From NCBI GenBank assembly GCA_018969705.1, contig JAGWXV010000001.1, forward strand, positions 1 through 41,127: a DNA stretch of 41,127 bases. The letters are read 5' to 3'. Each line of letters begins with the position of its first letter. Within the stretch, counting starts at the first letter, position 1. Below are positions 38,636 through 39,591 of this stretch, piece after piece. The DNA comes from Betaproteobacteria bacterium. GTDB taxonomy: Bacteria > Pseudomonadota > Gammaproteobacteria > Burkholderiales > Burkholderiaceae_A. The translations under genes were made by a program, and so were the position numbers. The notes beneath the pieces are model-generated. The model had not been told where the DNA came from. It saw only the letters and a program-made list of their open reading frames with translations, and did not search any database.

Positions 38636-38662
38636 TTAGCACTCGGGAACCTCGAGTGCTAA
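38636..38662. promoter_or_regulatory. CIRCE operator (HrcA binding site) upstream of rpoH
   Basis: A perfect match to the CIRCE consensus: TTAGCACTC (38636-38644), a 9-base spacer, and GAGTGCTAA (38654-38662). CIRCE is the target of the heat-shock repressor HrcA. A sigma-70-like promoter can be read inside it (TTAGCA at 38636-38641, 18-base spacer, TAAAAT at 38660-38665), so HrcA binding would block rpoH transcription. The rpoH ATG is 44 bases downstream. The divergent decarboxylase starts 117 bases away on the other side and is less likely to be controlled by it. Confidence 0.93.
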
Positions 38663-38706
38663 AATTCGGGCTTATTAATCAGTAATCGCTTTCGGAGGCT
38701 TTCCCA

Positions 38707-39591
38707 ATGAGCGCCCAGGCTCTCTCGGCGGACCATGCCCTGACCGCCCTCTCTTTATCGCCAGCAGGCAACCTGGATGCCTATGTTCGGGCTGTCCAGC
38801 AGTTCCCCTTGCTCTCCGCAGAGCGGGAAGAGGAGCTCGCCCTCAGGTTTCGGGTATCGAACGACCTTGATGCGGCGAGAGAGTTAGTGTTAACTCACTT
38901 AAGGCTCGTGGTCTCGATTTCCCGGCAGTTCAAAGGCTATGGCCTTCCTCAGGCTGACCTTATCCAAGAGGGGAACATCGGCCTGATGAAGGCCGTAAAG
39001 CGCTTTGATCCTACCCGCGGCGTGCGGCTCGTATCGTTTGCATTGCTGTGGATCAAGGCGGAAATCCACGAATACATCTTGCGAAATTGGCAGCTCGTTA
39101 AGGTTGCGACGACCAAGGCCCAGCGCAAGCTGTTCTTCAACCTGAGGTCAATGAAGAAGACCCTCGGTGTTCAAGAAGGCGTCTCTCTGGATCAGGCGAA
39201 GCAGATCGCCCGAGAACTCAATGTTGCGCCAAGCGACGTGCTGGAGATGGACCAGCGTCTTTCAGGCGGGGATATCGCAATCGAAGCCAATAACGATGCT
39301 GCCGAGGATACATTTGCCCCGATTGCCTATCTCGCAGCCCCGGATGCCGATCCGGCGCAGGTGGTTGAGGCCGAGCAGTCCGCGGCACTGCAATCCCAGG
39401 GACTACTGCAGGCACTGCATCAGCTCGATGAGCGTAGCCGAGAGATTGTGATCGCACGCTGGCTTAAAGAAGATGACGACGGCGGGGCCGCCACGCTTCA
39501 TGAACTCGCTGCACGCTTTGGAATCTCTGCAGAGCGGGTTCGACAAATTGAGGCGGCAGCGCTGAAAAAACTTCGCGCAACGCTCTCTTAA
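38707..39591 (+). CDS. rpoH: RNA polymerase heat-shock sigma factor sigma-32
   Basis: RpoH directs transcription of heat-shock genes. The 294-residue sigma-70 family protein has region 1.2-2 (ELVLTHLRLVVSISRQFKGY, GLPQADLIQEGNIGLMKAVK, RFDPTRGVRLVSFALLWIKA), the diagnostic RpoH box QRKLFFNLR at residues 139-147, and region 4 with the helix-turn-helix LHELAARFGISAERVRQIEA. GGAGG lies eight bases before the ATG. A perfect CIRCE element covers the apparent promoter, so HrcA control of sigma-32 is likely. No sigma-32 type promoter was recognised upstream. Confidence 0.97.
   Translation: MSAQALSADHALTALSLSPAGNLDAYVRAVQQFPLLSAEREEELALRFRVSNDLDAARELVLTHLRLVVSISRQFKGYGLPQADLIQEGNIGLMKAVKRFDPTRGVRLVSFALLWIKAEIHEYILRNWQLVKVATTKAQRKLFFNLRSMKKTLGVQEGVSLDQAKQIARELNVAPSDVLEMDQRLSGGDIAIEANNDAAEDTFAPIAYLAAPDADPAQVVEAEQSAALQSQGLLQALHQLDERSREIVIARWLKEDDDGGAATLHELAARFGISAERVRQIEAAALKKLRATLS

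Follow-up and report, generated by a model that had tools for sequence, protein, structure and literature searches.

A conserved CIRCE element before rpoH of a betaproteobacterium as a predicted HrcA operator overlapping the rpoH promoter

The window, a stretch of 41,127 nucleotides in contig 57 of a betaproteobacterial assembly (1.45 Mb, 214 contigs, 79% complete), carries rpoH, the gene for sigma-32, and a decarboxylase-like gene transcribed in the opposite direction (Table 1). The rpoH product scores 380.2 bits against the equivalog model TIGR02392, the cut-off of which is 323.1. The gap between the two divergent genes is 188 bp long, and it contains a CIRCE element. The decarboxylase-like gene, which sits between ftsY and rpoH, begins 117 bases from the element on the side away from rpoH. 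On the other side, the rpoH ATG follows after a spacing of 44 bases, as given in the preliminary description of this DNA.

Table 1. Features at the rpoH locus in window coordinates (feature, position, strand, basis or remark)
Divergent decarboxylase-like gene, 757 aa	36245-38518	-	best models lysine/arginine/ornithine decarboxylase, all below cut-offs
CIRCE (HrcA operator)	38636-38662	.	arms 38636-38644 and 38654-38662, spacer 38645-38653
TTAGCA, weak -35 match	38636-38641	+	entirely in left arm; spacing of 18 fixed by CIRCE geometry
GGAACCT, sigma-E-type -35-like word	38646-38652	+	in CIRCE spacer; sequence and genus alignment
Extended -10 TGCTAAAAT, right CIRCE arm plus AAT	38657-38665	+	sequence; AT conserved in relatives
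GGAGG, likely ribosome-binding site	38694-38698	+	sequence; 8 nt before rpoH ATG
rpoH (sigma-32)	38707-39591	+	TIGR02392 and NF005143 above cut-off

The element at 38636-38662 reads TTAGCACTC-GGGAACCTC-GAGTGCTAA, and a pattern scan of the window found 0 mismatches to TTAGCACTC-N9-GAGTGCTAA, which bears out the earlier claim of a perfect CIRCE overlapping the rpoH promoter. It is the only match in the window at ≤3 mismatches, a threshold that shuffled windows passed 0.02 times on average (100 shuffles). Similarly, it is the single CIRCE in the host assembly, and a search for other sites at ≤3 mismatches returned none in the 79% of the genome that the assembly is estimated to cover. The assignment to the CIRCE family is based on the match to the consensus, the presence of hrcA in the same genome, the location in the promoter region of a heat-shock gene (rpoH), and the position, which is kept in relatives.

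The preliminary description had left hrcA to be searched for. The gene is present and intact in the host assembly (PF01628, E 3.5e-64; TIGR00331, 311.2 bits against a cut-off of 197.2), and the N-terminal part of its product can be aligned with Thermotoga HrcA 1stz (E 3.7e-18). Its divergent neighbour resembles nadK, and the genes behind it resemble hemH and grpE (start only), all three named by inspection. Across the 3.65 kb that hold hrcA and the beginning of the grpE-like gene, including the region upstream of hrcA, no CIRCE was found; the best candidate there has 8 mismatches, and HrcA autoregulation in the host genome was rejected on this basis. Ahead of the grpE-like gene stands CTTGAAA-N14-CCCAAT, by eye a sigma-32-type promoter without CIRCE (contig 146; about 230-260 of locus L002, minus strand).

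The sole GroEL-family gene found in the host (contig 116; L032, 1438-3057) passes the GroEL model, and its 3.1-kb locus holds no CIRCE, the best candidate having 7 mismatches. By eye, its neighbour is a PhoH-like reading frame, and no adjoining groES was noticed. Canonical groESL was not found in the 79% complete assembly. Since the host protein is only 46-54% identical to the products of the groEL genes that lie behind CIRCE in relatives, canonical groESL is probably located in the missing part of the genome, and the L032 gene possibly encodes a second, divergent GroEL. Two CIRCE sites occur in 6/6 sister genomes, the second being situated before groEL in five and at a contig end (L019) in G004.

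Conservation was assessed in an order sample of 61 genomes, comprising the host, 6 further members of its genus, 19 more of its family, and 35 more of its order. CIRCE at ≤2 mismatches precedes rpoH in 55/61 genomes, including 26/26 of the family; the rpoH sites include that of G057, in which the exact rpoH start relative to CIRCE is unclear. Upstream regions of rpoH in related genomes, a comparison that the preliminary description had proposed, thus keep the element in most cases. Among the 111 CIRCE loci read in this survey, 55 lie before rpoH, 51 before groEL, 3 before neither, and 2 at contig ends. The three (L121, L126, L141) hold neither gene within their 3-kb loci, and their CIRCE elements carry 2-3 mismatches; the two at contig ends, without gene assignment, are L019 and L022. 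The rpoH sites of G034 and G050 have 4 mismatches, G043 has neither an rpoH CIRCE nor hrcA, and no rpoH was recognised in G054 or in G031 (68% complete). In G058, which is 99% complete and has no hrcA, the rpoH site is a relic with 5 mismatches in which TGATAAAAT and GGAACTT-N16-TCATA are kept. In this single case, the promoter words have outlived the operator.

A further set consisted of 80 named rpoH loci. They were the top scorers among more than 580 candidates, which biases the set to close relatives, and two of the loci (L142, L143) are also in the survey. CIRCE at ≤2 mismatches was found in 79/80 (44 exact, 29 with one mismatch, 6 with two), and the 80th has only 45 bases upstream. The titles of these loci are mostly betaproteobacterial (Burkholderia, Paraburkholderia, Cupriavidus, Herbaspirillum, Janthinobacterium, Variovorax, Thiobacillus, Methylotenera, Accumulibacter, and others); a few give Proteobacteria only, one gives Gammaproteobacteria, and one gives Chitinophaga, which is surely mislabelled.

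A class sample was made up of one genome per GTDB family (114 genomes; rpoH was present in 103, the host among them). Leaving the host aside, 72/102 genomes have CIRCE at ≤3 mismatches before rpoH (exact in 40, one mismatch in 23, two in 5, three in 4); G167, which is among these 102, belongs to the order of the window. When a 600-base stretch from each genome was shuffled with its composition kept, ≤3 mismatches were reached in 1/2040. The element tracks hrcA: it is present in 64/69 genomes with hrcA vs 8/33 without (Fisher 2.7e-12, a generous value, as the genomes are related and kinship is ignored). Five of the eight genomes with CIRCE and no hrcA hit are incomplete (62-86%), and three (G154, G135, G076) are 97-99% complete. 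These three, together with five genomes that have hrcA and no CIRCE at rpoH, stand against a strict rule joining hrcA and CIRCE. Another repressor may use the CIRCE or near-CIRCE sites of G154, G135, and G076, or hrcA may lie in a gap.

Within the order survey, hrcA is present in 58/61 genomes. The genomes without it are G043 and G058 (99-100% complete), which have no CIRCE at ≤3 mismatches, and G018 (70% complete), which has the site; G054 (96% complete) has hrcA and CIRCE at ≤3 mismatches nowhere in the genome. Collectively, the presence of hrcA in the host, the conservation of CIRCE at rpoH in order and class, and the co-occurrence with hrcA, exceptions included, lend comparative support to the earlier proposal that HrcA would control rpoH.

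The statistics of promoter words rest on 131 distinct sites before rpoH in the order set (54 from the survey, 77 named). L153, with its 45 upstream bases, L142 and L143, which are identical to survey loci, and the rpoH site of G060, which is counted in the genome total of 55/61, were left out. The arms are nearly invariant in these sites, partly by selection, as the sites were chosen for ≤3 arm mismatches, and the spacer is variable. At rpoH of G070 (L302), GAGTGCTAAAAT ends 2 bases upstream of a perfect CIRCE; it could stem from duplication of the right half or be a second CIRCE. The rpoH CIRCE spacer of another order member, G055 (L003; a single contig of 1.7 Mb), contains TTGACA, and no RpoE hit was obtained in this genome.

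The preliminary description had read a promoter, TTAGCA-N18-TAAAAT, into the element. The letters are present at 38636-38665, with 9/12 matching the consensus and TG ahead of the -10. As independent evidence the match in the window alone does not hold, because the whole -35, its distance from the -10, and the initial half of the -10 come from the CIRCE arms. The independent part is the AAT behind the right arm, the AT of which is conserved across relatives. A at +28 and T at +29, after the right arm, are found together in 111/131 rpoH sites vs 3/51 groESL sites of the order set (p 4e-24), and in the class sample AT is present in 52/72 rpoH sites and T at +29 in 67/72. In the order-set rpoH sites, the right arm and the conserved AT form TGCTAANNT, an element of the extended -10 type. 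The constraint at +28 and +29, seen at rpoH but not at groESL, fits a promoter that overlaps the operator. Transcription is predicted to start at about 38671-38673, and an additional start upstream is possible.

A second, sigma-E-type promoter laid over CIRCE in many relatives had been missed in the preliminary description. GGAACYT with TC 16-17 nt behind it is the geometry of a sigma-E (RpoE) promoter. GAACY starts 15 or 16 bases ahead of CIRCE in 45/131 rpoH sites and 0/51 groESL sites of the order set. At this offset, the TC close to where the left arm ends falls 16-17 nt after GGAACYT. Where GAACY occurs elsewhere, TCnnA peaks at a distance of 16 nt (21/68 words), the next value being 6, at 17. 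Taken together, GAACY with TC at 15-17 nt is present in 77/131 order-set rpoH sites, 62/131 having TCnnA, and in 0/51 groESL sites; shuffled flanks gave a mean of 5.1 and a maximum of 11. This pattern was first spotted by eye in the order set, where the test was not blind, and the class sample serves as an independent check: GAACY with TCnnA occurs in 54/72 rpoH sites (shuffle mean 0.7, maximum 4). Among rpoH upstream regions without CIRCE, the TCnnA motif was found in 4/31 (shuffle mean 0.9, maximum 4); it may reflect lineage, not linkage, and counts against a tight reading.

In the genus of the window, the alignment shows GAACC within the CIRCE spacer in 7/7 members. TC lies 16 nt behind it in L046, L017, L015, and L020 and 17 nt behind it in L044 (5/7), and TCnnA is found in L044 and L046. 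The two members in which TC is missing at that spacing are L047 and the window, where no TC occurs 15-17 nt behind GGAACCT. RpoE was not found in the host assembly (79% complete). It is present in the genome of L047 (G004), and loss of rpoE therefore cannot explain the missing TC in both. A sigma-E promoter in the window itself was rejected, only the -35-like word being present. Because the -10 is missing in the window, and L047 lacks TC though its genome has RpoE, our claim for the window is limited to the operator and the extended -10.

Based on these comparisons, we consider it very probable that 38636-38662 is an HrcA operator overlapping the rpoH core promoter and holding rpoH transcription down until heat. 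At normal temperature, HrcA on CIRCE would cover the core promoter and block RNA polymerase, keeping rpoH low. Upon heat, HrcA would leave, rpoH mRNA and sigma-32 would rise, and sigma-32 would switch on the chaperone genes. The release could occur through GroEL shortage or through HrcA itself sensing heat. HrcA of Bacillus is GroEL-dependent; if the same held here, negative feedback through GroEL would complete the loop. For Campylobacter, the title of a published paper states that HrcA senses heat itself (PMC8533110).

The same operator occurs at groESL, groEL being the other target in the survey (51/111 CIRCE loci), in different surroundings. CTTGAA, a sigma-32-type word, precedes CIRCE at groESL at -29 in 29/51 sites and between -34 and -29 in 39/51, whereas it is found in 3/131 rpoH sites, at three different places; sigma-32 autoregulation of rpoH was rejected on these counts. 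Conversely, groESL sites lack the sigma-E-type pair (0/51) and carry AT behind the right arm in just 3/51. In relatives, HrcA would thus repress both groESL and its activator, sigma-32, forming a coherent feed-forward loop. Because the HrcA operator lies directly behind a sigma-32-type promoter at groESL in relatives, groESL would be switched on only once sigma-32 has risen and HrcA has been released. Such an arrangement would account for the differing surroundings of the two kinds of site.

Other explanations of the element were weighed against this one. As CIRCE lies in the 188-bp region of two divergent genes, it could serve the decarboxylase-like gene, its nearness to rpoH being incidental. 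The decarboxylase-like gene, however, adjoins rpoH in 26/54 survey sites and 0/77 named sites; the neighbours change while CIRCE stays with rpoH, and this gene was rejected as the main target on that ground. The AT behind the right arm also points towards rpoH. We regard this explanation as extremely unlikely. An operator that has become a fossil, once bound by HrcA and no longer controlling rpoH in this lineage, would match the incomplete assembly, in which neither canonical groESL nor a second CIRCE was found. It is very unlikely in view of the 18/18 intact arm bases, the intact hrcA, and the site at ≤2 mismatches in 26/26 family genomes.

Alternatively, the inverted repeat could form an RNA hairpin in the rpoH leader, acting in stability or as a thermosensor, and not an operator. 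As RNA, the repeat folds into a stable hairpin, mildly more so than shuffles (z -1.91; 9/200 shuffles equally or more stable). Against this, transcription is predicted to start beyond the element, which would then be absent from transcripts of that promoter. Moreover, the element tracks the presence of hrcA, and identical letters are kept at the groESL and rpoH sites, as expected for a protein site. We therefore find a leader hairpin quite improbable, and an operator for HrcA remains our reading of the repeat.

For many beta- and gammaproteobacteria, we propose, with only a little more confidence than doubt, a compact three-input rpoH switch in which HrcA would gate a sigma-E-type and a housekeeping promoter, both interlocked with CIRCE, and through them the supply of sigma-32 under envelope stress as well as its basal supply. 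The left arm would commonly end in the sigma-E-type -10, and the right arm would hold the housekeeping extended -10. The switch would be ancestral to the class, and its HrcA half would have been lost in E. coli-like lineages; in the genus of the window, the sigma-E half would have slid 26 bases into the spacer and decayed in the species of the window. If HrcA does gate rpoH in many of these bacteria, two classical heat-shock circuits would be joined in series, and transcriptional repression would be added to the translation and stability levels of sigma-32 control. The arrangement is directly testable in culturable relatives.

The standard account of sigma-32 control derives from E. coli and stresses the translation and stability of sigma-32. 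The E. coli control genome gave no HrcA hit, unlike the host of the window. On sequence grounds, the pairing of CIRCE with rpoH appears to be an ancient and widespread control that is missing from the E. coli textbook model. The sigma-E-type half has experimental counterparts: in many relatives, GAACY is followed by TC 15-17 nt on, as in E. coli rpoH P3 and the Bordetella bronchiseptica rpoH (fam) promoter, the latter of which is described as transcribed in vitro by Bordetella SigE (PMC3490749). The text of that paper does not mention HrcA. Additionally, a review places a heat-inducible rpoH promoter of B. pseudomallei under RpoE control (PMC5994319).

The preliminary description could not say how widely a link from HrcA to rpoH had been described. 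In the part of the open-access literature that was covered, outside which most subscription papers lie, no paper was found to describe a CIRCE before rpoH for beta- or gammaproteobacteria. The question is answered in part by Geobacter sulfurreducens, for which a perfect CIRCE upstream of rpoH, at position -51, was printed in 2004, with hrcA in the genome (PMC545781, Table 8). That study used profiles by Permina and Gelfand (2003) for beta-, gamma-, and epsilonproteobacteria. Geobacter belongs to a different class from the organism of the window. The work of Permina and Gelfand of 2003, a likely place for a description in beta- and gammaproteobacteria, or the RegPrecise database may list rpoH among HrcA targets. 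The two organisms share a perfect CIRCE before rpoH and hrcA in the genome; the hrcA-grpE-dnaK-dnaJ operon of Geobacter sulfurreducens also carries CIRCE according to that source (PMC545781), whereas the window's genome has none around hrcA and the grpE start. Collectively, CIRCE at rpoH is already known in kind from Geobacter, and its breadth and its interlock with a sigma-E-type promoter are what may be new to specialists.
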